23,900 nucleotides of DNA, from IMG/VR virus record IMGVR_UViG_3300041964_000041, positions 1 through 23,900 of that record. One strand, 5' to 3'. A program made the position numbers and the translations under genes. Origin of the DNA: a virus. How positions within the stretch are numbered: position 1 is the first letter of the stretch; every line of letters begins with the position of its first letter. The notes beneath the pieces were generated by a model. That model was given only the letters and a program-made list of their open reading frames with translations. It was not told the origin of the DNA and made no database searches. Below, piece after piece: positions 1 to 23,124 of the stretch.

Positions 1-79
1 GGGACGTCAAGGCGCACGCCGCGGGGCCGCTGTGGCGCTGTAATAGTTTTTATGGCGCCGGCGGTCCTCGCCACTGTGA
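1..79 (+). pseudogene. 3' end of minor tail protein gene, fold-back copy
   Basis: This is the last part of the minor tail protein gene that ends at 5320 on the other arm. It encodes the closing Val-Lys-Ala-His-Ala region and stops at TGA 77-79. An AT-rich stretch of about 13 bases (TGTAATAGTTTTTA region, 40-53) interrupts it and is absent from the right arm, so this copy is damaged. It is listed only to explain the left edge of the window. Confidence 0.7.
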
Positions 80-92
80 TGAGGGGAACCCG

Positions 93-567
93 GTGTCGTC
101 ATTTCGCAGCCGGCGAGGCACCATGGCGACGAAGTTCGAAGCGCTGTCCGAAGATCGTCTCCAGGTCGCCGACGAGACGGTCAACAACTCGTCGGCGATG
201 CAGAACGACAACGAGTTGTCATCGCCGTCGCCGCGTCGAAGAAGTACCGCTCCTGTCCCGGATCATCTACAACTCCAACTCGACCGCGGACATGAAGTCC
301 AGTTCACCTACCCGGTCGGGCTCACCGCCACGTACAGCCTGCTCTGCGTCGGTCGGGCTGGCGACCTGGGCGTGTGTATGAGCAGTACGAGACCGGCGTC
401 GGGATCGTCGAAGGGGCCGTGCGCCGACCGGTCCATCCACTCAACGGCCCCGTCGCCGGGGTGGGACCGCCCGGACGCTGCAATGCGTGCAGAAACACCG
501 CGAAACTGAGCAACACCGTGGTCAAGGCCGGGTCCTACCTGGAACTGTCGAGATCGTCACGTTCTGA
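93..567 (+). pseudogene. Structural protein, fold-back copy of 4817-5307
   Basis: The GTG start at 93 follows a GAGGGGAA ribosome site, and the gene ends at TGA 565-567. Several indels move the frame, so no single frame carries the whole protein. The segments recovered (TKFEAL, ADETVNNSSAMQNDNEL, YEQYETGVGIVEGA) match the right-arm gene, which is the better copy. Function is discussed there. Confidence 0.75.
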
Positions 568-584
568 ACCGGAGGGGGACCCGA

Positions 585-1442
585 TTGCTATCTCCGCTCC
601 GACCCCGCTACCGCGCCGAGTACGTCCGGCGCAGCTGCAGGTGTTCATCGACGAGGCCCGCGACGGTTCGCGCTGCCGGGCCACAGCACGTCGGCGCCAA
701 GGGCGACCGGGGCCACTCGTCGGGGCTACCACCGGTCCCGTAACTGGATCATCAACTCGCCGGATTCCCGGTCTCGGCGAGGACTACTCGGTCCGCTCGG
801 CCGACGACCAGCGCGGTGACGCGAACTGGCTGGCCGCCGTGGACATCTCCCTGCCGACCGGCGAGCTTGTCGCGGTGTCCCGCCGGCTCAAAGCCGCCTC
901 CGACGCCCGCGACCCCCGGCTGCCACGGCTGCGGGAGTTCCTCGGCACCGTCAACGGCACCAGCCCCCTACGGCTGGGACTTTCTCGGCCGGTTACACGA
1001 AAACCCCGGACCGGTCGCACCTGTGGCACCTGCACCTGTCCCGGACCCGCCGCTACGCCGACACCCCGATGACCGCAATACTTGACGTGATGTCGGAGAG
1101 ACGACGACATGGCGCTGGCACCGGACGAAAAGCAGATGCTCCTCAACGTCCACGACTGGCTGTTCGACTTCATGCGCGGCTGGTCACCGCCGACGCCGGC
1201 ACCCCGCACTCAAGACCTACGTCCCCAACCAGGTGCTCAACCAGCTGTTGGCCAGGCCGGTCACCGCGCCGGTGGTGATGACCGCCGCCGACCGGGCCGC
1301 GATCGTCGAGGACCTGAAGGCGGCGATCCTTGCCGAACTGCCCGACACCCCCACCGTCGAGGACATCAACGCCGCCGTCGACAAGGCCGTGGACACGCGG
1401 ATCAACGGCGCGACGATCCGGACGGCCGGACACGGCACCTAA
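585..1442 (+). pseudogene. Endolysin (M15-like peptidase), fold-back copy of 3932-4800
   Basis: The TTG start at 585 follows GGAGGGGGACCC, and the gene ends at TAA 1440-1442, overlapping the next ATG by one base. Indels split it into at least three frames. This copy preserves the active-site stretch GYHRSRNWI near 723-750, which the right arm garbles. The right arm in turn preserves WREFLGTVNGTSPYGWDF better. The two arms together give a continuous endolysin sequence. Confidence 0.8.
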
Positions 1443-1911
1443 TGCCCGACGTCCTGCTGTCGGGCCTGGCCCCACAGGTCGGGGCCGGCGGGCTGCTCGC
1501 GGTGTTCATCCTGGCTCTAGTCACCGGCCGGTTGATCACCCGGTCCTCACACCAGGACCGGATCGCCGACAAGGACGCACAGATCGCGTATCTGCACGCG
1601 GCGCTGGACAAGCGCGACGAGCAGGTCCGCAAGCTGCTCGAAGGCCAGGAGTTGTCGGTGCGGGCTACTGGAGGATCTGAAAGCCAAGGCGAAACGCCCG
1701 ACAAGGCGGCGGGCGGTGAGGCTGTGGCGGTGGTGGCGCCGCCGCCGCGCCGCCGCGTCGACGGAGCTGCACGCCGCCCGGGAGCGACTGGAGACGACCA
1801 ACGGAGACGACGCGAAGGTCGACCACGTGATGGGCCGCGTCGAGCAGGCGCTACGAGAAAACAACCTCGCCCCGTACGTGATGCAGCCTCGGCATAACGA
1901 AACGGCAGTGA
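1442..1911 (+). pseudogene. Coiled-coil membrane protein, fold-back copy of 3462-3932
   Basis: It starts with MPDVLLSGLAPQVGAGG at 1442 and ends at TGA 1909-1911. Against the right-arm copy there is a one-base insertion near 1660 and a short deletion near 1888, so the frame is broken twice. See the right-arm entry for function. Confidence 0.8.
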
Positions 1912-1915
1912 TGCG

Positions 1916-2657
1916 GTGACCGCCACCCTCTACAAGCATTTGATGATCGCCATAACTGCGTTCGGTCTGCTCGGCTGCGTAACGTTCGTTGTCGCCTACG
2001 CCGTCCGCTCCGGCGGCACCTGGATACACCAGGAAGCCGGCCGGTTCCTCATGGTCGTCTACACAAGCCTGGCGATGCTGTTGGCCCTCGTCCTGTCCAA
2101 CCAGATATTCGCCGACTGGCCCGGCCGCCGCCAGATCACCGTGGCGCTGTTCGTCCTCTACTGCATCAAGGCGTGGTGGCCCCTGCGGCTACTCACCCGC
2201 GCTCAGGAAGACGCCCGCCGCCGCCGCGCCGCCGACGACCACGCCCAGCCGCCCAGAGACCCGCCGACCGTGGCCGACATCGAAGGAGGCGCACCGATGG
2301 TCGACAGCATCCCCGTACCACCCTCCCGGGAAGCCGACGCCCGTAACCGGGCGCTGCGTACGTTCCTGCAAGGACTCGGCGTCGACATCGTGGTGGCCCT
2401 GGCCCTGACCGTCGGCCCGGCGCTCGTCGGGTCGGAGTTCACCTGGTCCCGCGCCTACTGGCAGACCCTCGGCCTGATCGCCGCCAAGACCGTGATCACG
2501 ACGATTGTGTCGTACGTGACCCGTAAGCTGATCCCCCCCCACGTCGAACCTGACCGGGCCGTCCGCCCGGCCAAACCCGAACCGGTCCAGACCGACCCGC
2601 CCACCAAGCCACCAGCGACCGCCGCCATACCGCTGGAGCGGCACCAGCGGCACGTAG
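1916..2657 (+). pseudogene. Membrane protein plus holin, fold-back copy of 2721-3457
   Basis: The GTG start at 1916 opens a frame that runs unbroken through the internal ATG at 2297 to the poly-C run at 2533-2540. The run adds seven C and a nearby T is missing, which destroys the C-terminus. In the consensus of both arms the gene ends at TAG 2655-2657 (..WSGTSGT*). From 1916 to about 2530 the copy matches the right arm closely, so the read-through past the internal start is seen in both arms. Confidence 0.78.
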
Positions 2658-2681
2658 CGGCCCGTACAGACGGACCGGCCC

Positions 2682-2696
2682 GACCCCCAGGGGGTC
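2682..2696. other. Centre of the inverted repeat: GACCCCC-A-GGGGGTC
   Basis: The symmetry axis is base 2689, a single unpaired A between GACCCCC and GGGGGTC. It lies 32 bases beyond the stop codons of the two holin copies (2657 and 2721). If the real genome carries a GC-rich hairpin here, for example a terminator behind the lysis genes, the 3' end could have folded back and primed synthesis of the second arm. Only the axis is seen; the mechanism is inferred. Confidence 0.85.
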
Positions 2697-2720
2697 GGCC
2701 GGTGCCGTCTGTACGGGCCG

Positions 2721-3076
2721 CTACGTGCCGCTGGTGCCGCTCCAGCGGTATGGCGGCGGTTCGCTGGGTGGCTTGGTGGGCGGGTCGGTCTGGACCGGTC
2801 GGGTTTGGCCGGGCGGACGGCCCGGTCAGGTTCGAACGTGATCAGCTTACGGGTCACGTACGACACAATCGTCGTGATCACGGTCTTGGCGGCGATCAGG
2901 CCGAGGGTCTGCCAGTAGGCGCGGGACCAGGTGAACTCCGACCCGACGAGCGCCGGGCCGACGGTCAGGGCCAGGGCCACCACGATGTCGACGCCGAGTC
3001 CTTGCAGGAACGTACGCAGCGCCCGGTTACGGGCGTCGGCTTCCCGGGAGGGTGGTACGGGGATGCTGTCGACCAT
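2721..3076 (-). CDS. Probable holin (two membrane segments)
   Basis: The ATG at 3076 (MVDSIPVPPSREADARN) follows a strong GAAGGAGG ribosome site. Combining both arms restores one missing base and gives a protein of about 118 residues ending PPYRWSGTSGT at TAG 2721-2723. Residues about 28-47 (GLGVDIVVALALTVGPALVG) and 60-80 (TLGLIAAKTVITTIVSYVT) form two hydrophobic segments. They are followed by a basic, Pro-rich, charged tail typical of holins. Small proteins of this pattern commonly sit just downstream of the endolysin in actinophages and permeabilise the membrane to release it. Neighbours are the endolysin and a coiled-coil membrane protein upstream. The holin role is inferred from size, topology and position; no unique motif proves it. 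Confidence 0.7.
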
Positions 3077-3457
3077 CGGTGCGCCTCCTTCGATGTCGGC
3101 CACGGTCGGCGGGTCTCTGGGCGGCTGGGCGTGGTCGTCGGCGGCGCGGCGGCGGCGGGCGTCTTCCTGAGCGCGGGTGAGTAGCCGCAGGGGCCACCAC
3201 GCCTTGATGCAGTAGAGGACGAACAGCGCCACGGTGATCTGGCGGCGGCCGGGCCAGTCGGCGAATATCTGGTTGGACAGGACGAGGGCCAACAGCATCG
3301 CCAGGCTTGTGTAGACGACCATGAGGAACCGGCCGGCTTCCTGGTGTATCCAGGTGCCGCCGGAGCGGACGGCGTAGGCGACAACGAACGTTACGCAGCC
3401 GAGCAGACCGAACGCAGTTATGGCGATCATCAAATGCTTGTAGAGGGTGGCGGTCAC
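2721..3457 (-). CDS. Membrane protein with three N-terminal membrane segments, in frame with the holin
   Basis: The GTG start at 3457 lies five bases after the previous stop (3462) and encodes MTATLYKHLMIAITAFG. Hydrophobic segments are near residues 8-28, 44-64 and 74-92, followed by an Arg-rich cytoplasmic stretch (EDARRRRAADD). No stop occurs before the internal holin ATG at 3076, in either arm. The frame can therefore make a long protein of about 245 residues ending at 2721, plus the shorter holin from the internal start. An N-terminally extended partner is a known arrangement in holin/antiholin systems. A stop lost to the same sequencing error in both arms cannot be excluded. If it is separate, the first gene ends near 3080 and is a three-segment lysis-region membrane protein of about 125 residues. 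Confidence 0.6.
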
Positions 3458-3461
3458 CGCA

Positions 3462-3932
3462 TCACTGCCGTTTCGTTATGCCGAGGGCCTGCATCACGTA
3501 CGGGGCGAGGTTGTTTTCTCGTAGCGCCTGCTCGACGCGGCCCATCACGTGGTCGACCTTCGCGTCGTCTCCGTTGGTCGTCTCCAGTCGCTCCCGGGCG
3601 GCGTGCAGCTCCGTCGACGCGGCGGCGCGGCGGCGGCGCCACCACCGCCACAGCCTCACCGCCCGCCGCCTTGTCGGGCGTTTCGCCTTGGCTTTCAGAT
3701 CCTCCAGTAGCCGCACCGACAACTCCTGGCCTTCGAGCAGCTTGCGGACCTGCTCGTCGCGCTTGTCCAGCGCCGCGTGCAGATACGCGATCTGTGCGTC
3801 CTTGTCGGCGATCCGGTCCTGGTGTGAGGACCGGGTGATCAACCGGCCGGTGACTAGAGCCAGGATGAACACCGCGAGCAGCCCGCCGGCCCCGACCTGT
3901 GGGGCCAGGCCCGACAGCAGGACGTCGGGCAT
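3462..3932 (-). CDS. Membrane-anchored coiled-coil protein of the lysis cassette
   Basis: The 156-residue protein starts with the ATG at 3932, sharing one base with the endolysin stop (TAATG), which implies translational coupling. Residues about 14-30 (GGLLAVFILALVTGRLI) form one membrane segment. A charged heptad-like region follows (IADKDAQIAYLHAALDKR to LLEDLKAKAK), then a very basic Trp/Arg cluster (LWRWWRRRRAA, about 93-103) and a second helical region (ELHAARERLETTNGDD). It ends at TGA 3462, five bases before the next start. Proteins with one membrane segment and a coiled coil next to endolysin genes are often holin-associated or spanin-like, but no lipobox or recognised domain is visible. 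The exact function is unknown. Confidence 0.72.
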   Translation of the reverse strand: MPDVLLSGLAPQVGAGGLLAVFILALVTGRLITRSSHQDRIADKDAQIAYLHAALDKRDEQVRKLLEGQELSVRLLEDLKAKAKRPTRRRAVRLWRWWRRRRAAASTELHAARERLETTNGDDAKVDHVMGRVEQALRENNLAPYVMQALGITKRQ

Positions 3933-4800
3933 TAGGTGCCGTGTCCGGCCGTCCGGATCGTCGCGCCGTTGATCCGCGTGTCCACGGCCTTGTCGACGGC
4001 GGCGTTGATGTCCTCGACGGTGGGGGTGTCGGGCAGTTCGGCAAGGATCGCCGCCTTCAGGTCCTCGACGATCGCGGCCCGGTCGGCGGCGGTCATCACC
4101 ACCGGCGCGGTGACCGGCCTGGCCAACAGCTGGTTGAGCACCTGGTTGGGGACGTAGGTCTTGATGTGCGGGGGTGCCGGCGTCGGCGGTGACCAGGACC
4201 GCGCATGAAGTCGAACAGCCAGTCGTGGACGTTGAGGAGCATCTGCTTTTCGTCCGGTGCCAGCGCCATGTCGTCGTCCTCTCCGAACATCACGTCAAGT
4301 ATTGCGGTCATCGGGGTGTCGGCGTAGCGGCGGGTCCGGGACAGGTGCAGGTGCCACAGGTGCGACCGGTCCGGGGTTTTCGTGTACCGGCCGAGGAAGT
4401 CCCAGCCGTAGGGGCTGGTGCCGTTGACGGTGCCGAGGAACTCCCGCCAGCCGTGCAGCCGGGGGTCGCGGGCGTCGGAGGCGGCTTTGAGACGGCGGGA
4501 CACCGCGACAAGCTCGCCGGTCGCAGGGAGATGTCCACGGCGGCCAGCCAGTTCGCGTCACCCGCGCTGGTCGTCGGCCGAGCGGACGAGTAGTCCTCGC
4601 CGAGGACCGGGAATCCGGCGAGTTTGATGATCCAGTTACGGGACCGGTTGGTAGCCCGACGAGTGGCCCAGGTCGCCCTTGGCGCCGACGTGCGTGGCCG
4701 GCAGCGCGAACCGTCGCCGGGCCTCGTCGATGAACACCTGCAGCTGCGCCGGGATCGTACTCGGCGCGGTTAGCGGGGGTCGGTTAGCGGAGATAGGCAA
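3932..4800 (-). CDS. Endolysin, M15-like zinc peptidase
   Basis: The TTG start at 4800 is supported by GGAGGGGGACCC just before it. The frame is broken by several indels but is recoverable with the fold-back copy, giving about 285 residues. The N-terminal domain has ALPATHVGAKGDLGHSSGY followed by HRSRNWI, then NWLAAVDIS, WREFLGTVNGTSPYGWDF and SHLWHLHLS. This spacing of His, Asp and His-x-His fits the zinc site of M15-type D,D- or L,D-peptidases that cut peptidoglycan cross-links. After a GEDDDMALAPDEKQ linker comes a helical C-terminal part (QVLNQLLARPVTAPVVM, AAIVEDLKAAILAELPD) without a recognised wall-binding motif. It is followed directly by two membrane-protein genes, as expected for a lysis cassette. 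Family assignment is from motifs only. Confidence 0.78.
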
Positions 4801-4816
4801 CGGGTCCCCCTCCGGT

Positions 4817-5307
4817 TCAGAACGTGACGATCTCGACCAGTTCCATGGTAGGACCCGGCCTTGACCACGGTGTTGCTCAGGTTCGCGGTGTTTCTGCGCC
4901 CACTGCAGTTGCAGCGTCCCGGCGGTCCCACCCACGGCGACGGTGCCGTTGATGATGATGGACCGGTCGGCGCCGGCCCCTTCGACGATCCCGACGCCGG
5001 TCTCGTACTGCTCATACACCGCCCAGGTCGCCAGACCCGACCCGACGCAGAGCAGGCTGTACGTGGCGGTGAGCCGACCGGGTAGGTGAACTGGAACTTC
5101 ATGTCCGCGGTCGAGTTGGAGTTGTAGATGATCCGGGACAGGAGCCGGTACTTCTTCGACGCGGCGACGGCGATGACACAACTCGTTGTCGTTCTGCATC
5201 GCCGACGAGTTGTTGACCGTCTCGTCGGCGACCTTGGAGACGATCTTCGGGACGAGCGCTTCGAACTTCGTCGCCGATGGTGCCTCGCCGGCTGCGAAAT
5301 ACGACAC
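4817..5307 (-). CDS. Virion-associated protein of unknown function
   Basis: The GTG start at 5307 follows GAGAGGGGA, and the gene ends at TGA 4817-4819, 16 bases before the endolysin start. Joining frames broken by at least three indels gives about 163 residues: MSYFAAGEAPSATKFEAL, then VADETVNNSSAMQNDNEL, SRIIYNSNSTADMKFQF, SLLCVGSGLATWAVYEQYE, IIINGTVAVGGTAGTLQLQW and a closing NTVVKAGSYMELVEIVTF. The second half is beta-rich with an aromatic/Gly pattern seen in small receptor-side tail proteins. Its place between the last minor tail gene and the endolysin also suggests a tail-tip or fibre component. I know similar actinophage proteins only as uncharacterised structural genes. Confidence 0.68.
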
Positions 5308-5319
5308 GTGTTTCCCCTC

Positions 5320-8015
5320 TCACAGTGCGAGGACCGACGGGCGCCACCGCGCCACAGCGGCCCCGGCGGCGTGCGCCTTGACGATCCCGTTAAACCGAAC
5401 GGTCACGGTGAACGACTGCGGCGAGGAGGTGCCGGTGCAGGCGGTGACGGTCATCCGTTCCCCGCCGACCTCGATGTCGTAGGGCTCGTCGACGGTGGAC
5501 CACAGGTTTCCCGGTCACGGTCACGGACAGGCGGTGCCGGTGGTGGTGACCACGCCGGCCATCGTCGACCGCTGGTGTCCAGGCGGCCGGTGTTGCCGGT
5601 GCCGCCGATGACGGCGACCTGCCACGGCCCGGCGGGGCTGGTGTTGGCCTGGACCAGCCACGTGTACGGCCGATCGTCTCGGTGTACCCGTCCAGGTGCA
5701 CGTCGATCGGGTCCGGTGGCAGTTCCGGCGGCGGGTGTGGTCACCTGGATCCGCGACCCGGGGGCGCAGCGCACCCAGTCCGGTATCCGGGCCGGGGACC
5801 GCACCAGGTTGAGCCCGAGGCGGTACTGGAGTTCCTCGGTGGTGCCCCAGGTGCAGCCGCCACTGGGCGTGTGGCAGCGGCCGGAGGTCGGTGTGGAAGT
5901 TCACGACACCGAGTCGTCATAGAGCCCGTACGCGGCGATGTGGTCCGGGTCGAACGCGCGGGCCCGGGCGCCGTCCTTGCGTTTGGACTTCCCAGTCGTT
6001 GCGGACCCGCCGGTCGTCGTCGACGGGGGCGAGGTCGTTGATTTCCCCGGCCGCGCAGTTGAGGTCATCGCCACGGCCTGGTTGTACAGGTCGGCGCGGG
6101 TCAGGTAGGACAGCCCGTAGTTACGTTCGATGAGCAGACCACCGTCGACGGCTTCGGCTTCCCGGATCAGGTCCAGCACCGACCCGGACGGCTGCGGGCC
6201 GGTGTTCTCGGTGACGGCGAACGGGTCCACGTCGGTGGGGATGTCGTTCTCCACGCACAGCGCCCAGATCCGCACCGCACACGACTCCCCCACCCACCGT
6301 TGAGGGCGTTCCAGCCCGGGGAGGTGTTGGTGTCGTCGTAGATGGCGATATGGCCGATGGTGGCGCCGGCCAGGCCGGTCGACGCGGCGGTGGAGAACCC
6401 CAGCACCGTGCCGACGGTGCGGCCCGGTTCGGTGCCGGTGACGGTGGTGTCGGTGGACGTCGACGCGATCCGCAACGCCCAGTCGATGTCCGCGCCGTTC
6501 TGCACCGCGCGGGCCTCGATGAGCCAGGCCAGCCCGTGGTGGATGTCGAAGTTGATCGTCGGGGCGGCCAGGATGTCGGTGGCCCCGGAGATCGCCTCCA
6601 GTTGGATCGTCGACGGCGCACCGCCTTGATGGTGACCCGCCAGCCCAGCAGGCCGGTGGTCTGCCAGCCCAGCGGGTAGACCTCGGCGGTGCCCAGGTCG
6701 GTGGGCAGGTACAGCGCGAACCGGACCGCCATCTTCCCGGTGGCGGTGTAGGGGGGCACCACCCCGGACAGTTGCGGGTCCGCCCCGAGCAGCGGCAACT
6801 GTTCCGACCCGACGATCGCCGACGACCCGCCCGGGTCGAGCTGCGTGTACATGATCGGCGGGGAGTTCGTGGACGCGGCGAACCACGCGGCGTCGTCGCC
6901 GTCCTCCATCGGCCAGTACGCGACGGGCTGGGCGTAGGCCGGGTGGGTCCACTGCCGTTTCACCGCGGAGTTGACCCGCTGCCCCTGCTCCAGGCGGCGC
7001 AGCACCCGGACGCGGCGGCCGGCACGAACGCGTGGTTGCCGGACTTGTCCCAGCGCAGCGGCAGTTCGTCCAGGTAGCCGTCGAACCGGTTCGGGTAGGC
7101 CACCGTCGCCGTGTAGTTGTCGTAGGTGGCGGTGGGCATGGCGGCGTTGGTGTTCCCGACGTCGCGGCCGGTGCGGATCCCCACCGCCCCGGCGGTGGAG
7201 ACGTCGGCGCCCAGGTACTCGACGTGCCAGCGGGTCGGTTCGGTGGCGCCCTGCCAGACCCGCATCCGGAACCCGGTCCCGATGAGCTGCGCCCGGACCT
7301 TCAACGGGGTGGCTGCGGCGTGGGTCAACCCGGTGACCACCGCGGTGGCCAGCGTCGACCCGCCGACGGTGGTGGTGTCCTGGTGCAGGCTCGCGGTGAC
7401 CGCACCGCCGACGGCGACGGTGACCCGGGCCAGGTAGTAGTCGGTGGCCGAGGTCCGGCGAAACAGCAGGTTCGCCGGTTCCAGCGGACCGCCGGTCGGG
7501 GCGGCGCAGGTGACCGTCACCGTCTGGTCGACGTCGCGGGCCGACACCGCCGCGAGGTGACTGGACCGGTACGTCGCCGCCGCGGTCACCTCGTGGGTCG
7601 CCGCGGAACCGGTGACGTCGAAGTCAGCGGCGACGGTGGCGCCGTTACCGAAGTTCGTCCAGGCGCCGCCGGTGTCGGCCGACCCCCACCCGGCGACGAC
7701 GGCACGGCTGAACGTGTCCGCCGCCACGGTGGTGGCCGAGTCGACGACCACCTGCAGCGGCGTGCCCCGCCGGATCCGGCCGTACCACGGCCCGGCCGGG
7801 TTACGGGCCACCCACCGCCCGTCGGTGTTGTCCACGGTCAGCCGGCACGTCGACGGGGTGACGTTGGACTGGTCGTCGGGCCGGCCGACACTGATACCGA
7901 TGTTGTCGCGGATCAGCACCCACTGGGTGGCGTCGGTCCACTCCCACGAGTACGGGGCGGCCGAGCGGTCCGCGCCGAGCGCGACCCGGACCCGCACCGC
8001 CAGCGGCGTGCTCAT
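5320..8015 (-). CDS. Large minor tail protein
   Basis: The ATG at 8015 overlaps the tape-measure stop (ATGA). The protein can be followed through at least six indels (near 7010, 6625, 6290, 6060, 5915 and 5700-5500) to TGA 5320-5322, about 895 residues. The start (LAVRVRVALGADRSAAPY) and early section (DGRWVARNPAGPWYGRIRR) belong to the tail-tip proteins that follow tape measure genes in actinophages. Residues about 100-320 look like a concanavalin-type beta sandwich (DTFSRAVVAGWGSADTGG onward). A second one starts near AQPVAYWPMEDGDDAAW. The C-terminal part has LLIERNYGLSYLTRADLYN, RAFDPDHIAAYGLYDD and VDEPYDIEVGGERMTVT, ending VKAHAAGAAVALWRPS. It probably forms the tail tip and may bind sugars. 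Naturally it should be one open frame. Confidence 0.82.
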
Positions 8016-9732
8016 GCCGGGGTCACCCGGGCCCCACCGACCCGCAGTTGCAGGACACCGGTCCGGACGAGGTTACGGATCAAACCGGCCACCGCGGTGT
8101 CACCGCCCGGGGCGACGGACAACTCCACGGCCGGCGCCCCACCCCCGCCACCGGTGAGGGCCCGACCGCCGCCGCCGTTGGCGATGGCCCGCATCGAGTC
8201 GGCGTGCGACAGCACCCGACCACCCACCGCCGGGATGTCGATTTCCGGGCCTTCCTCACCGACCATGCGCGGCTGCCCCGCCTCGTACACGCCGCCTTCG
8301 GCGAACGCGTACTGCTTACCGAGGGTCGCCGCCCGCGGGGCGGTCCCTTCGGTGACGAACTTCGTGGTGATGACCTTCACCGACGGCAGGGACAGGTAGT
8401 TACGCCACGCCGAGGTCAGCATCCCGATGGTCGCCGCGTCGGCGCCGTTCGCACGGGCCTGGGCCAGGGCGCTGTCGGCGGCCCGCCGGAACCACGCGTC
8501 CGCCGCCGCCACCGACTGCCCGGAATCGATCATCGCCTGGCGGACCCGGTAGGCCGCTTCGATGTTGTCTTTCGTCGCGGCGATGTGCGCCCGGCCAGCG
8601 GCGGTCCCGGCGTCCCAGGCACCCCGGTTCGCCGCCAGCGACGCGGTCAGCTCGTCGACGCTCGCCTCGTAGTTCAGCGTCGCGTCGACCATGCCCATCG
8701 TCGCGCCGAACAGCTCGTCCGCGCGGCTCTTGTAGTTGGCCAGCGCATCCGCGGTGGAGTTGGCGCTCTCACCCAGGGCGGTCACCTGCCCGGTCGCGCC
8801 GGCTATCGCCCCGCCCCACGCCTGGACCCCGGCCGCGTCGTCGTTCCACAGGTCCCCGGGCAACGCTTGGCGGAACTTCACCCCGGCGGCGTAGAAATCC
8901 TCGGCCAGGCGGATCCACCGACCGAGCACGATGATCGTGGCCTGCGCCACGTCCATGAAATCTTTCAGCGCCGCCGCGCCGCCCTCCGACCCCCCCCCGC
9001 AATGTCTTTGAACGCCGTCGACAGGGCCGTCCCCACCTGGGGGAGTTCGTTGCGGAACACCTCAATGACCGGGCCGGCCTGCTCGACGAGCGCGGACAGC
9101 CCCGACCCGACCTCACGGACCATCCCGGCGATGCCGGTGAACAGCGGGTCGGCGTAGGCCGCGGCCCGCGACAGCATCTCCTCAAGACCGATATCGTTGA
9201 TCGCCGCGTTGATCTTCGCGATGCCCCGCAGGGTCGGCTCGACGAAATCCCGCGACGCCTGTTCCCAGCGCTGCGCCTGGCCTTTGACGGCGGCGTTGAA
9301 CGCCTCCTCGATCCGCGGGTCGGCGCGGGCGGCGCCGGCCACACCGAGCCCGACCGCCCCGGCCCCGGCCGCGCCGATCGCCGCCCCGCCGGCCGCGGCA
9401 CCGATGAACGGCGACGCCACCGCCCCGCCAGCCACAGCCAGGCCGGCGGTGATCGGGTTGATCGGCAACGCCTGGAAGCTGGTCGCCGCGCCCCGACCGA
9501 GCCCACCGGCACCGCGGGACACCCCACCGGCGCCACCCCCGCCAGCGCCACCAGCGGCGCGGCCAGCGTCCCGGGCCGCCCGGGCGAACTCATTGGCCTT
9601 ACGGGTGGCCCCGGCGAACTCGTCGCCCAGGTGGTCGACGTCGCGGGACAGCTTGCCGATCGCCCGGCCAGCGTCGTCCACTCCCCGGGTGTTGGCGGCG
9701 ATATCGACCTGCAGCTTGACCGGGCGGGTCAC
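8012..9732 (-). CDS. Tape measure protein
   Basis: The GTG start at 9732 encodes MTRPVKLQVDIAANTRGVDD, a typical tape-measure opening followed by helical heptads (IGKLSRDVDHLGDEFAGATR). A Gly/Ala-rich hydrophobic region spans about residues 60-145 (AGLAVAGGAVASPFIGAA). Long helices follow, and the C-terminus has FAEGGVYEAGQPRMVGEEGP, a motif common in tape measure proteins. One frameshift lies in a run of nine C at 8990-8998: adding a single base joins both halves into about 573 residues. The protein sets tail length and is ejected with the DNA. By the usual proportion of about 1.5 angstrom per residue it predicts a short siphovirus tail near 85 nm (inference). The next gene overlaps its stop. 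An antisense regulator gene starts 35 bases upstream. Confidence 0.9.
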
Positions 9733-9753
9733 CGCTCACCACCACCCGACTAC

Positions 9754-9759
9754 TACGCT
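9754..9759 (+). promoter_or_regulatory. Candidate -10 element for a leaderless transcript of the XRE gene
   Basis: TACGCT fits the actinobacterial TANNNT -10 pattern and lies eight bases before the GTG at 9768. Transcription would then begin at or next to the start codon. No Shine-Dalgarno sequence precedes that GTG, which agrees with leaderless translation. No -35 hexamer is seen at normal spacing. It is a motif-level prediction only. Confidence 0.4.
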
Positions 9760-9767
9760 TATCGGCT

Positions 9768-10217
9768 GTGTCCTATGACGTGGAATCTCAGGTTCAGCGG
9801 GTGGTAGCGGCACTGTGCGCCCAGCGGCGGCTCCAGCGAGTGAGCCAAGTAGAGATCGCGCGGCGAATGGGGACTGTCCAGTCAGCGGTCAGCGAACTGG
9901 AGACCGGCCGGACAGACCCGCAGTTCTCCACACTGCTGCGGTACGCGGCGGCGCTCGACGTCGACCTAACGGTGACGCTCTGGCTGTCCCGTCCCCGCGT
10001 CGATGTCTGCCTTGCACTGCAACCACAGCCAGCGGGGCATCGTCTCGATGTCGACGAGGGTCAGTCCAGGGAAGTGCCGGAGGAAACCGGGCGGTGTACT
10101 CCCGTCGGAGGGCGCGGGCGGCCCCTCCTCCGGGTCTTTTCCCGGGCCGTCGTCGACCTCGACGGCGTAGCGGACGGCCCGCGGTCGAAGTTCACATCCG
10201 CCAGCGCCACCTTGTGA
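9768..10217 (+). CDS. XRE-family helix-turn-helix regulator, antisense to the tail operon
   Basis: The GTG at 9768 starts SYDVESQVQRVVAALCAQRR. Residues about 25-70 form a clear helix-turn-helix of the Cro/CI (XRE) type: VSQVEIARRMGTVQSAVSEL, then ETGRTDPQFSTLLRYAAAL and DVDLTVTLWLSR. This fold binds operator DNA and occurs in phage repressors and in antitoxins. The frame stays open to 10217, but beyond residue 75 it is simply the reverse of the tail-chaperone gene. The natural end is probably near 9990-10020, as an indel in this region could hide a stop. It faces the late operon and sits between tail chaperone and tape measure genes, where phages usually have only a small gap. It could be a moron, an immunity-related regulator or an orphan antitoxin. 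Confidence 0.68.
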   Translation: MSYDVESQVQRVVAALCAQRRLQRVSQVEIARRMGTVQSAVSELETGRTDPQFSTLLRYAAALDVDLTVTLWLSRPRVDVCLALQPQPAGHRLDVDEGQSREVPEETGRCTPVGGRGRPLLRVFSRAVVDLDGVADGPRSKFTSASATL

Positions 10218-10495
10218 CCGTTGCGGCGCAGCGCCAGCCACACCAGCGCCCGCCACGCCCTAGCCGTCGGCGGGTGGCGCTGCGGCAGGTGCGGTTTGTC
10301 GGCGCGGGGTAGCGGCTTGCGGTCCGGGCCGAGAATCGGGGCGCCGAGGATGAACTCGTCCCACCCGTCGGGCTGGATGCCGTAGTCGTCGAGGTCCTCG
10401 GCCTCGTCCTGCATGAGGGTGGTCGGGTCAAAATCGAGCGGGTCCGTGCCGAGGCCGTAGCGTTCCCGGTCGGCCTCACCGAGCCAGATCTTCAC
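9966..10495 (-). CDS. Tail assembly chaperones, with probable programmed -1 frameshift
   Basis: The GTG at 10495 overlaps the previous stop (GTGA). The first product starts MKIWLGEADRERYGLG and has acidic and helical stretches (QDEAEDLDDYGIQPDGWDE, WRALVWLALRRNGHKVALAD). One indel near 10175 must be corrected to continue to RYAVEVDDGPGKDPEEG. The Gly-Lys codons there form G GGA AAA (10137-10143). A -1 slip would continue into ALRREYTARF, and one further indel near 10085 leads to LRHFPGLTLVDIETMPRW and the stop at 9966. Two overlapping chaperone products, a short one and a fusion made by slippage, are the rule in siphoviruses between the tail tube and tape measure genes. They coat the tape measure protein during tail assembly. 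Confidence 0.75.
10137..10143 (-). promoter_or_regulatory. Slippery heptamer GGGAAAA for -1 ribosomal frameshifting
   Basis: On the minus strand the sequence reads CCG GGA AAA GAC in the frame of the first chaperone product, so the heptamer is G GGA AAA, a standard slippery site. It lies near the end of the first product and in the expected gene position. Two nearby sequence errors blur the frames, so slippage is supported by motif and place, not by clean open frames. Confidence 0.6.
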
Positions 10496-10713
10496 GGCTG
10501 GCCGCCGGTGTCGGTGACGGCGAAGCCGACAGCGCCCCAGTCGACGTCGATGAGTCGTTCGTCGCCGAGTCGCTCAACGTAGGTCCGGATGGGCTCGCCG
10601 GCCACCGCCTCGATGACGATCCGGGCAATCAGGTCGCCGGGCCGGACCACGCCAGCCATGAGAAGGGCGTTGAAGAATCGCTCGCTTGTTGTGTCGATGC
10701 TCTCGATGTTCAT
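10492..10713 (-). CDS. Small tail-region protein of unknown function
   Basis: The 73-residue protein starts MNIESIDTTSERFFNALLMAG at ATG 10713, preceded by AGAGGAC. It is helical at first (FFNALLMAGVVRPGDLIARI), then mixed (RTYVERLGDERLIDVDWGAVG). Its stop overlaps the chaperone start (GTGA), so the two are translationally coupled. An 87-base gap with a strong hairpin separates it from the upstream gene, so it may head its own transcript. Position suggests a role in tail assembly. No family is recognised. Confidence 0.7.
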   Translation of the reverse strand: MNIESIDTTSERFFNALLMAGVVRPGDLIARIVIEAVAGEPIRTYVERLGDERLIDVDWGAVGFAVTDTGGQP

Positions 10714-10762
10714 TGGGTGGATGGGTCCTCTGTGGATGGTTTGCGGATGGTGGGATGGTGAG

Positions 10763-10797
10763 CCTCCGGCCGGCGACCATCCACGGCCGGCCGGAGG
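10763..10797 (-). terminator. Strong GC hairpin between tail-tube and chaperone genes
   Basis: A perfect 12-base-pair stem (CCTCCGGCCGGC at 10763-10774 with GCCGGCCGGAGG at 10786-10797) closes an 11-base loop. It starts four bases after the stop of the upstream gene. No U-run follows, as is common in high-GC actinobacteria. It could be a terminator, an attenuator lowering chaperone and tape-measure expression, or an mRNA processing or stability hairpin. Confidence 0.65.
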
Positions 10798-10800
10798 GGT

Positions 10801-11317
10801 TCAGGTGCGCCCGGCGATGGTGTCGGCGGCCTTGTCGACCGCGCGGACGGCGGCGCGGCGGAAGGTGTGTTCGCGGCGGCGGATCTGCGACCACACGTCG
10901 GGCAGGCGTTGGCCGACCCAGACGGCCCGGTTACCCATCACCGGATGCCGGAGGCGGTCTTTCTGCCCGATCCAGTACGGGAACAGCGCCACGATCCGGC
11001 TGGGGATCTTCGCCGGGCGGAAGGTGACTTCCGCGCGGGGGTCCCCGGCTGTCGTGACTTTCCAGTCCAGCGCGGCGGCGGTCGGCCGGCGAAGCGGCAG
11101 CCGGTTACCCCGGCCGGGCGGGAACCGGCGGCGGGGTGTTGCGGCGCTGCCCGGCGAGGTTCGCGTCCAGGATCGCGTCGCGCACGGACCGGTAGGCGGC
11201 GCGGGTCGGGTCGCGCAGCTCCGCGGCGAGGTCGGCGCGGATGTTCCCGCCGGCCCGTTTCAGGTCCCGGCTGACCGCCCGGAGTTCGTTCCCGCCGGCC
11301 AGCTTGAACCGCAGCAC
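10801..11317 (-). CDS. HK97 gp10-like head-tail protein
   Basis: The GTG start at 11317 lies three bases after the previous stop. The N-terminal half reads MLRFKLAGGNELRAVSRDLK, then ELRDPTRAAYRSVRDAILDA. After a frameshift near 11100 it continues WKVTTAGDPRAEVTFRPAK, ALFPYWIGQKDRLRHPVMG, VGQRLPDVWSQIRRREHTF and AVDKAADTIAGRT. The total is about 172 residues. A short helical start, a central beta region with H-PVMG, and a C-terminal helix full of Arg and Ala are features of the HK97 gp10 / minor tail neck family. The family normally lies just before the tail-tube gene; here it lies after it. It is immediately followed by the GC hairpin. Confidence 0.68.
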
Positions 11318-14002: not shown

Positions 14003-16018
14003 CTATCCGACGGTCGGGGTGGAGGTGGCACCGGCGGCCACCAGGTCGCCGCGCGGGTCGCCGTCCACCGCGGTGGTGGCGGTGCGGCGCTCGGTGACCG
14101 GGGCGCGGGCGGTGCGGCGCTCGGTGACCGCCGGCAGCGATGTCCGCCGGGCGGTCAGGGTGGGGCTGGAGGTGGCGTGGATGACCGCGGCGGACTGGGT
14201 GACGTCGTATGCCTCACCGACGATCAGGGCGGCCTCGGCGAGCACACCCAGCGCGGAGGCGGCGTTGGTGACAGCGCCGACACCGGCGGCTTCGCCGGGG
14301 GCGGCGGCCAGCGCGGCGGTCGGGTTGTTCGCCGTACCGGTGCCGGTGGCGGCCCCAGCGGACGGGCCGATCGAGGCGGCGGGCTGCGGGGCGTCACCGG
14401 TGCCGGCGGCGAGCCCGGCGGCGGCGGTGACCGCGATCGTCGGGGCGTTCGCCGCGCCGGTGCCGGCGGCGGCTTCGGCGGGGGCGCTGGTCTGCGACGC
14501 CGTCGACACGGTCGCGTCGTAGGCAGCCCCGGTGCCGGCGGCAGCCTCGGCGTTGACGGATACGGCCGGGGTGGGGTTGTCCACCACCGCGGTGCCGGTG
14601 CCGGCCGCGGCGTTCGCGGTGGCCGCAGCCGCGGCGTTGTCGGCGGCGCCGGTGCCGGCTGCGGTGGCGGGCTGCGGGCCGACACCAACGGATGCGTTCT
14701 CGGCGGCGCCGGTGCCGGCCGGTGCGCCGGCCAGCGCGCCGGCCACCGCCGTCGGGTTGTCTGCCGCGCCGGTGCCGGCGGCGAGTTCGGCGGGGGCGTT
14801 GACCGCCGACGCCGTGGACACCGTCGCGTCGTTGGCGACGCCGGTCCCGGTGGCCGCCTCGGCGTTGACGGCGAGCCCGGCAGCCGGGTTGTCGGCCGCC
14901 CCGACCGCGGTGGCAGCCCCAGCCGGCACACCCAGCGCGACGGTCGCCGCGTCGACCGCTGCGGTCCCTGCGGCGTTCTCGGCGGGGGCGTTGGCGCCAC
15001 CCACGGTGGCCACGGTCGCGTCGTAAGCCGCGCCGGTCCCGGCGGCGGCTTCGGCGGGGGCGCCCACGGCCGGGGTGGGATTGTCGGCCGCTCCGGTGCC
15101 GGCGGCGTGGCCGGCCGGGACGCCGACCGCGGCGGCCGGGTTGTCGGCCGCGCCGGTGCCGGCGGCGGCGCCGGCCGACGCACCGACCGCAGCCGCCGCG
15201 TTGTCCGCCGCGCCGGTGCCGGCGGCGTTGTCGGCGTTGGCGCCGGTCGGGCCGAGGTAGCCGGCCGTGGACCAGCCGATGTCATCGAGGTGGACCGTGT
15301 AGGAGGTGATCGACCGGGCGATGCCCCACAGCACCCGGCACTGCCCGCCGCCGCGCAGCGTGTCCAGGGTCGCCGCGGAGGTCAGGGTTTCGGTGGGGGT
15401 GGTCGCGTCCGGGGTCAGGAACAGCTTGCACTCAAGCTGCCCGACGGTGGCGCTGAACACCAGCACCGCGACTTCGAGCCGGAAGTACGACCCGGCGGTG
15501 ATCGAGGCGGTGGAGGTGTTGAGGACCACACCGGTGCCGGAACGCTGTTCGAGCTTGCCGGTGTTGTTGATCCGCCATTCGCCCTGGAACGCGAACGCCG
15601 CGTCGGAGACGACCGCAACCCGCACCCCGTTGGCGTCCGGTGGCAGGACGGGCAGGTTCAGGTAGCCCCGGCCGTAGACCTGCCCGGTGGAGGCGACCCC
15701 CAGCGCGGTGGACCACTCCAGGTAGGTGGTGCCCGACGTCGCGCCGACGGTGAGGGTCGCACCGAGGGCGGCCCGGTTACGGGCCGCCGCCGAGTAGACG
15801 GCGCTGCCGCCGGTGATGATCTGGACCGCGTCGAAGGCTGTGTCGGTGCCGCCGCCGGAGTTGCCGGTGGTGATCGTGGCGGCGTCGACGCCGATCTCGA
15901 AGGTGTGCCGCGGCGACCCCGCCGCGGGCGGCGCGGCGCCGGTGGGAAGCCAGCGGGCCGGCCGTCGGGGGGCCGGCTTGACCCAGCCGCGCCGGAACCG
16001 CGCGACGCGGCCCGGCAC
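14003..16018 (-). CDS. Virion-surface protein: LamG-like domain plus 17 Ala/Gly/Thr repeats
   Basis: This intact 671-residue protein has a GTG start at 16018, three bases after the previous stop. A basic N-terminus (ARFRRGWVKPAPRRPARW) is followed by a concanavalin/LamG-type beta domain, residues about 40-260 (RHTFEIGVDAATITTGNS, TYLEWSTALGVASTGQVYG, QGEWRINNTGKLEQRSG, FRLEVAVLVFSATVGQLECK, YTVHLDDIGWSTAGY). Residues about 266-614 are tandem repeats of about 20 residues with consensus AGTGAADNPTAAVGxPAEAA. Asn/Asp and Tyr-Asp-Ala-Thr positions alternate, and some units have 24 residues. The end holds three 10-residue (A/E)RRT units. Position suggests a capsid- or neck-attached fibre, with the beta domain as glycan binder and the repeats as a stalk or spacer. 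The two 3'-side neighbours are also intact, so the repeats are not an assembly artefact of bad sequence. Confidence 0.82.
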   Translation of the reverse strand: MPGRVARFRRGWVKPAPRRPARWLPTGAAPPAAGSPRHTFEIGVDAATITTGNSGGGTDTAFDAVQIITGGSAVYSAAARNRAALGATLTVGATSGTTYLEWSTALGVASTGQVYGRGYLNLPVLPPDANGVRVAVVSDAAFAFQGEWRINNTGKLEQRSGTGVVLNTSTASITAGSYFRLEVAVLVFSATVGQLECKLFLTPDATTPTETLTSAATLDTLRGGGQCRVLWGIARSITSYTVHLDDIGWSTAGYLGPTGANADNAAGTGAADNAAAAVGASAGAAAGTGAADNPAAAVGVPAGHAAGTGAADNPTPAVGAPAEAAAGTGAAYDATVATVGGANAPAENAAGTAAVDAATVALGVPAGAATAVGAADNPAAGLAVNAEAATGTGVANDATVSTASAVNAPAELAAGTGAADNPTAVAGALAGAPAGTGAAENASVGVGPQPATAAGTGAADNAAAAATANAAAGTGTAVVDNPTPAVSVNAEAAAGTGAAYDATVSTASQTSAPAEAAAGTGAANAPTIAVTAAAGLAAGTGDAPQPAASIGPSAGAATGTGTANNPTAALAAAPGEAAGVGAVTNAASALGVLAEAALIVGEAYDVTQSAAVIHATSSPTLTARRTSLPAVTERRTARAPVTERRTATTAVDGDPRGDLVAAGATSTPTVG
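14078..14130 (-). repeat. Short direct repeats coding three ERRT units
   Basis: A 23-base segment beginning GGCGGTGCGGCGCTCGG is repeated exactly at 14078-14100 and 14108-14130. A third, diverged copy lies further on towards 14160. The period is 30 bases, coding 10-residue units (LTARRTSLPA, VTERRTARAP, VTERRTATTA). The exact copies suggest a recent slippage or duplication inside the gene. Confidence 0.85.
14177..15223 (-). repeat. Tandem 60-base coding repeat array (about 17 units)
   Basis: On the minus strand the units begin GCCGGCACCGGCGCGGCGGA and code AGTGAADNPTAAVG-like peptides. Most units are 60 bases; four are longer, in-frame variants of 66-72 bases. Unit divergence is high, so the array is old or under diversifying selection. 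It is coding sequence in one unbroken frame. It is not a CRISPR: no constant repeat alternates with unique spacers. Confidence 0.88.
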
Positions 16019-22390: not shown

Positions 22391-23124
22391 GTGACAGACA
22401 TGCCGGTGGAGCGCTCGATGGACCGTGCACTGGAGAGGTCGCCGAGGGCTCGTGGCGGGTGGATGCGGAGGCCGGGCTCATCTATGGAATGGACCCCGAT
22501 CGGCCGCTGGGCACCGACACAAGGTCCATGGCTACATCACCGTGACGCCCGGCTCCGGTAGCCGGCCGGTGTTCGCGCACCGGGTCATCTGGGCCGTCGC
22601 GTGCGGACCCATCCCCGCCGGCCACGTGATCAACCACCGGAACGGGGTCAAGCACGACAACCGGCTCGCGAACCTGGAATGCGTCAGTCACCAGGCGAAC
22701 ATCAGGCACGCCTTCGCGACCGGACTACGGATCTCGCCCACGGTGAGCGGCACTGGAAAGCGAAGCTCACCGAGGTCGACATCGTCGAGATCTTCGACTC
22801 AGGAACGAAGGCCGCCTCGTCGAGGAGATCGCTGCCGTATTCGGCGTCAAGCGACCCACGATCTCCCAGGTGTTACGCGGAGAGAACTGGCGGAACGTCG
22901 CCACGTCTCACCGCACGTCGCCCCCGGCCAGAGCGGGCTACTGGAAGTCCACTCTGACTGAGGACGACGTACGGGAGATCCGACGGCTACACGGCGAGGG
23001 GGCACGTCAGGCTGCCCTCGCGGCGCAGTTCGGGATCAGTCGACCCCAGATTTCCAACATCGTGACGGGCAGAGTTGGAGGCACGTCACCTAGCCCTACG
23101 TCCAAATCGGACATCAGGGACTAA
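22391..23124 (+). CDS. HNH homing-type endonuclease with two C-terminal DNA-binding motifs
   Basis: The GTG at 22391 has a well-placed AAGGAG (22379-22384). Three indels (near 22480, 22750 and 22815) break the frame; joined, it gives about 245 residues. The nuclease core is HGYITVTPGSGSRPVFAHRV, IWAVACGPIPAGHVINHRNG and VKHDNRLANLECVSHQANIR, with the His-Asn-His metal site of the HNH_3 type. Two related helix-turn-helix units follow: HWKAKLTEVDIVEIFDSGTK with FGVKRPTISQVLRG, and YWKSTLTEDDVREIRRL with FGISRPQISNIVTG. These are NUMOD-like DNA-recognition modules. Such genes are mobile and insert near conserved phage genes. It points against the late operon, and its TAA (23122-23124) overlaps the capsid stop. 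Confidence 0.85.

Follow-up and report, generated by a model that had tools for sequence, protein, structure and literature searches.

The locus and its late-gene setting

The window comprises the whole of IMG/VR record IMGVR_UViG_3300041964_000041 (23,900 bases), a late-gene fragment whose late genes lie on the minus strand throughout the tail and head region. Read from the right end, where an HK97-type major capsid protein is encoded (minus strand, E 3.5e-27), the order continues with a head–tail connector (minus strand), two tail-tube-like proteins (minus strand; phrog_9522 and phrog_4574), the tail assembly chaperone, a short tape measure and a distal tail protein. Between the chaperone and the tape measure, an open reading frame of 149 aa with a GTG start runs on the plus strand (9768..10217) and carries the helix-turn-helix domain of an XRE regulator. 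Of all relatives, a Pilimelia terevasa prophage (hereafter L089) is the closest overall, with 52–54% identity in the head and neck proteins, and the best annotated relatives of the distal tail protein, encoded 3' of the tape measure, are distant Streptomyces and Thermobifida phages. From these matches, we infer an actinobacterial siphovirus whose host was most likely an actinobacterium.

Bases 1–5388 are an inverted repeat of themselves, with 96.25% identity and 112 gap openings. Such a repeat is typical of the hairpin artefacts of long-read sequencing and does not reflect biology, and the genes listed within it are doubled. The reading frames break at a run of C near 8996, at about 10185, and again between 11105 and 10992, and probable indels affect the tape measure, the chaperone and the 11317..10801 frames. 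Owing to the hairpin artefact and these probable indels, the junctions of the regulator insert need read-level confirmation.

Three other features of the late region were recorded. Two short minus-strand frames (11317..11105 and 10992..10801) look like one indel-split tail gene: phrog_11991 matches the second piece only at its positions 118–172 of 174, and L089 has a single 163-aa ORF at the place equivalent to 10801–11317. A 671-aa alanine-rich frame between the head and tail genes (14006–16018, minus strand) contains a degenerate tandem repeat with AAGTGAADNPAAAVG-like units and self-matches at 14228–15248. Finally, an HNH_3 endonuclease at 22425–23121 (plus strand, E 2.1e-16), followed by a resolvase-like HTH repeat in another frame, is antisense to the late genes and directly adjoins the major capsid gene. 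It probably encodes a homing endonuclease whose frame an indel has disrupted, and represents a second reverse insertion within the same late operon as the XRE gene.

The flanking genes and the divergent gap

The N-terminal part of the tape measure occupies 8965..9732 on the minus strand and was identified by profile matches to phrog_34159 (E 9.5e-14) and the tape measure family phrog_14901 (E 1.3e-3), along with tblastn matches to the tape measure frames of two relatives (L009 and L089). Its continuation (8956..8012, minus strand) follows a probable indel at the C run near 8996. The coding signal switches frame exactly at this run, and the split at 8980–9000 is probably a sequencing indel. A GGTGAG ribosome site lies just 5' of the tape measure GTG, as in L089. 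Since the tape measure frame begins at 9732 on the minus strand, the divergent gap separating it from the regulator start spans 9733..9767, which is exactly 35 bases (GC 60%), the distance given in the preliminary description. The first position of the interval assigned there to the feature, 9733–10217, is the first base of the gap and not the start of the gene.

The chaperone is encoded in two minus-strand frames. The N-terminal frame (10061..10495) carries the motif RALVWLALRRN..VALADVNF, which is found at the same place in relatives, and is joined to the C-terminal frame (9966..10256) via a −1 frame change near 10185. The codon-position GC signal supports this change, and the joined product matches that of a relative (L042) across the junction, with an E value of 4e-4 against a small database. 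The change near 10185 may be either a sequencing indel or a programmed shift; programmed frameshifting is usual for such tail assembly chaperones. The true 3' end of the chaperone gene is probably 9966 and not 10061.

A compact XRE gene and its supported extent

The preliminary description placed an XRE regulator in antisense orientation within the tail operon, and profile searches bear this out. The ORF matches Pfam HTH_3 (PF01381) over residues 19–68 (E 2e-9, with a score of 37.8 bits where the cut-off is 23) and the transcriptional regulator family phrog_1373 (E 8e-13), as well as the sequences of two solved structures in the PDB, namely the HigA antitoxin 6af3 (E 1.3e-4) and the 434 repressor (E 0.001). 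Homologues in viral contigs and bacterial genomes are 43–54% identical over residues ~8–71. The nearest viral one, a 68-aa XRE protein from IMGVR_UViG_3300012001_000135 (L003), is 44% identical over residues 10–71 and stops at the end of the domain. Several bacterial homologues likewise stop 5–25 residues past it, and others carry longer, unrelated tails. No recent donor was found, the bacterial relatives (399 genomes, one order) being 44–54% identical and the plasmid relatives 35–53%.

The AlphaFold model of the product has four helices and a strand, with pLDDT values of 71–90 over residues 11–70 and below 50 over residues 73–79, 87–122 and 125–149. Its Foldseek neighbours, none of which had an E value below 0.03, are all small XRE proteins, comprising C.AhdI, C.BclI, a Rhodococcus XRE protein, HigA2 and also HipB. 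No family match was obtained past residue ~75 in the Pfam and PHROG profile searches. Judged from the sequence, the segment from 9768 to about 9995 (plus strand, ~76 codons from the GTG) is a real gene encoding a compact XRE protein, and the open-frame extension (9996..10217, plus strand) is probably uninformative as coding sequence.

This extension is best understood from its position relative to the chaperone. The last ~72 codons of the regulator ORF (~220 nt) run antisense to the chaperone frame 10256..9966 and share its codon register, such that the second codon positions of the regulator and the chaperone C-terminal frame are paired and a stop on the plus strand requires a TTA, CTA or TCA codon in the chaperone. 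These codons account for 4 of 3045 in the phage genes, so that 72 codons would remain open by chance with a probability of about 0.91. Open antisense runs of 130–670 codons in this register are found in nearly all long genes of the phage. As an open frame is thus expected by chance, residues past about 76 are not evidence of coding. The full 149-aa regulator was consequently rejected as unsupported, with homologues ending near the domain and the tail of the model having low pLDDT values.

The same consideration applies to the overlap between the two genes, which amounts to about 250 nt for the ORF as drawn and about 15–45 nt for the homology-backed gene. The overlap of the regulator 3' end with the chaperone gene, as previously proposed, is therefore retained for about 15–45 nt, whereas the long overlap is mostly an accident of codon-in-register antisense in high-GC DNA. 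This is a general trap in GC-rich phages, in which a short antisense gene that enters its neighbour in register looks longer and more overlapping than it is.

A CI-type immunity repressor was also considered for the product and is not supported. No match to a C-terminal oligomerisation or cleavage domain was found beyond residue ~75, and residues 87–149 were modelled with low confidence. CI-type repressors typically lie in an immunity or early region with an integrase; the record is a late-gene fragment, in which this gene sits among tail genes.

An empty site in relatives

Searches with tblastn using the tape measure, the chaperone and the major tail proteins gave no match among annotated phages, so the alignment of the distal tail protein was taken as the anchor, and the corresponding loci were fetched from 137 relatives (80 viral and 57 from bacterial genomes). 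Of the 141 loci with a distal tail match, 118 had both a long frame, interpreted as the tape measure, and 700 b or more of sequence upstream of this frame; tape measure calls were automatic, some chaperones were too divergent to be placed, and many loci were distant. With an XRE profile built here, an XRE gene was found before the tape measure in none of these 118 loci, the window itself excepted. The profile did detect XRE genes in several loci of relatives, but always on the far side of the distal tail gene, 10.5 kb or more from the start of the locus. A search of the 80 whole viral records with HTH_3 gave matches in 23, none of which, when placed by locus coordinates, fell between chaperone and tape measure.

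The spacing of the flanking genes agrees with this result. The L089 chaperone frame is closed by a TGA, and only a few bases separate it from the tape measure GTG. Five annotated related phages (Dryad, Vondra, Dubu, Dagobah and P1312) have a gap of no more than about a dozen bases between the two genes, or an overlap. This agrees with the earlier assertion that the interval is normally a few bases long, and the empty site for which a search in related phages had been suggested is seen both in the 118 loci without an XRE gene and in the near-zero gap of L089. The distance from the chaperone motif to the tape measure is 454 nt here, compared with 214–412 nt in 20 relatives. Among viral contigs, a search for exact matches to 30-mers taken from the regulator, from the chaperone and from the start of the tape measure returned no second contig with the insertion.

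Given that no XRE gene was found in the 118 loci and that the gap in the closest relative, L089, is a few bases long, the regulator appears to have been inserted between two genes that adjoin each other in relatives, an arrangement seen in one contig. At the level of sequence comparison, the XRE domain, its reverse orientation and the empty site in relatives are established. The preliminary description had held lack of conservation of the helix-turn-helix frame in relatives to count against it; as worded, this condition does not fit the case, the gene being absent from this site in relatives and its domain family well conserved elsewhere.

Expression signals and composition

A candidate actinobacterial −10 element, TACGCT (9754..9759, plus strand), lies in the gap and would suit a leaderless regulator transcript. 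It conforms to TANNNT, which is the −10 consensus for 80% of the start sites in Streptomyces coelicolor, a species in which 21% of primary starts are leaderless (PMC4895711). The A of the element lies 13 nt before the regulator GTG, inside the spacing of 8–14 nt between the −10 A and the start given for leaderless genes (PMC3160421). Only seven TANNNT sites occur on the plus strand of the 18,512 non-artefact bases, and the chance of one falling in that span, judged after the fact, is roughly 7 × 7/18,512, or about 0.3%. A promoter scan found no −35 element and no sigma-70 consensus match for the regulator. The gap's only palindrome, CCGA-N12-TCGG over the −10 element, was matched by equally good ones in 35% of shuffles and was dropped as an operator candidate, not being above chance.

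No intrinsic-terminator-like site was found in 9500–10800 by a scan that demands a T run; in actinobacteria, the T run of terminators is often absent. The GC content of the insert (65.4%, against a mean of 71%) is only mildly low, corresponding to the 8th percentile of windows of the same size, and the GC3 of the regulator is 0.78, compared with 0.85–0.95 in the phage genes.

Interpretation of the insertion

The regulator gene is probably a reverse-oriented moron, and its product would be a self-expressed, autoregulating HTH protein with secondary effects, if any, on the tape measure. The insertion between genes that adjoin each other in relatives, as observed across the 118 loci, in L089 and in the five annotated phages, is what would be expected of a moron. 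Of the earlier suggestion of a moron acting in lysogeny, the antisense insertion at an empty site fits the moron, and a candidate promoter of its own is present; the lysogenic phase is kept as a conditional element. The TACGCT promoter (9754–9759) would drive a leaderless or nearly leaderless mRNA from about the GTG at 9768, mainly while the late operon is silent, which would be during lysogeny if the phage is temperate. The product would be a dimeric HTH protein of about 75–85 aa, acting as a repressor of its own promoter and perhaps of a further promoter in the phage, the host or a rival phage. Late transcription on the opposite strand would shut the regulator off, by collision or antisense RNA, and any effect on tape measure expression would be a side effect.

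An assembly or amplification chimera, with the regulator absent from this site in the real phage, is unlikely. The inverted self-repeat of 5,388 b, typical of a long-read hairpin artefact, the frames that are probably broken by indels (tape measure, chaperone and 11317..10801), and the lack of a second contig with the junction in the search above all speak for it. Yet the insert lies precisely between two genes, with the GGTGAG site of the tape measure kept and the chaperone frame almost whole, and random joins rarely produce so clean a placement. Furthermore, the record contains no other copy of the segment that could have served as its source, save for a weak 32-b similarity.

The geometry of the locus, with a divergent start 35 b from that of the tape measure and transcription into the chaperone gene, would also suit an antisense switch, in which the regulator or its transcript sets the expression of the tape measure or the late operon through binding in the 35-base gap, RNA polymerase collision or an antisense RNA directed at the 3' end of the chaperone gene. 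A precedent exists in the P22 ant moron, which has been proposed to influence the late transcription that enters the tailspike gene, perhaps by accident (PMC2629481). We regard such a switch, suggested earlier as opposing tail gene expression and unsupported by the present results, as no likelier than a chimera, because the gene is absent in all relatives examined and is thus no conserved part of tail control, palindromes as good as the one in the gap are common in shuffles, and part of the case for a switch was the long overlap, for the most part a codon-register artefact. In its most specific form, the regulator would be a lysogeny-phase switch within the tail operon, acting in the shared gap on both its own leaderless promoter and the tape measure leader, so that expression of the regulator and of the tape measure would be mutually exclusive, with a transcript antisense to the chaperone 3' end. 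This version is very improbable. If a switch did operate, the phage would control tail assembly locally, from inside the late operon, which is testable.

Still less likely than the general switch is an orphan antitoxin of the HigA/HipB type, a solitary protein neutralising or regulating a toxin of the host or a rival phage: HigA 6af3 is the best sequence match among solved structures (E 1.3e-4) and M. tuberculosis HigA2 and HipB appear beside restriction controller proteins among the Foldseek neighbours (all with E above 0.03), but the NCBIfam antitoxin models score far under their cut-offs (24.4 of 71.65 bits for the Y4mF family and 19.8 of 79 for HipB), the scan of neighbouring plus-strand ORFs with Pfam and PADLOC found no toxin-like partner, and the XRE fold is common to antitoxins, repressors and controllers alike.

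Comparison with known systems

The reverse-oriented moron favoured here can be set beside several known arrangements. Its nearest viral homologue, from L003, differs in its setting, being located in a group of early-type genes and oriented like the genes beside it. The Tab moron of Pseudomonas phage JBD26, an 83-residue protein encoded in the late operon, is expressed from the prophage (PMC10884400). Tab differs in occupying another interval and in acting against the tape measure proteins of rivals, and it is not known to be a DNA-binding regulator.

The immunity I region of P22-like phages encodes Mnt and Arc, which are ribbon-helix-helix proteins. In this ant moron region (mnt, arc, ant, sar), the late operon contains repressor genes along with an antisense RNA ahead of a tail gene, and an influence on tailspike late transcription has been proposed (PMC2629481). 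Mnt and Arc are part of an antirepressor circuit, whereas a single XRE gene is present here and no antirepressor was seen.

The closest positional parallels are found in HK97. The product of gene 23, annotated as a 'reverse moron product', is, like the XRE gene, opposite-strand cargo inside the tail operon; it differs in its interval, between tail genes I and J, in encoding an unrelated protein and in having a putative terminator. The 'moron product' gp15 is encoded by a small extra gene in the same interval as here, flanked by the frameshifted gene for the tail chaperone and by gene 16, which encodes the tape measure. Unlike the XRE gene, gene 15 runs in the direction of the tail genes and has an annotated putative terminator, and its product functions in exclusion and not as a DNA-binding regulator. 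According to the title of Cumby et al. 2012, as cited in PMC10884400, gp15 is a superinfection exclusion protein.

The actinobacterial phage described here would accordingly be a second, unrelated lineage, besides HK97, with a cargo gene at the boundary of chaperone and tape measure, the cargo in this case being a reverse-oriented regulator. This boundary may be a tolerated insertion point.
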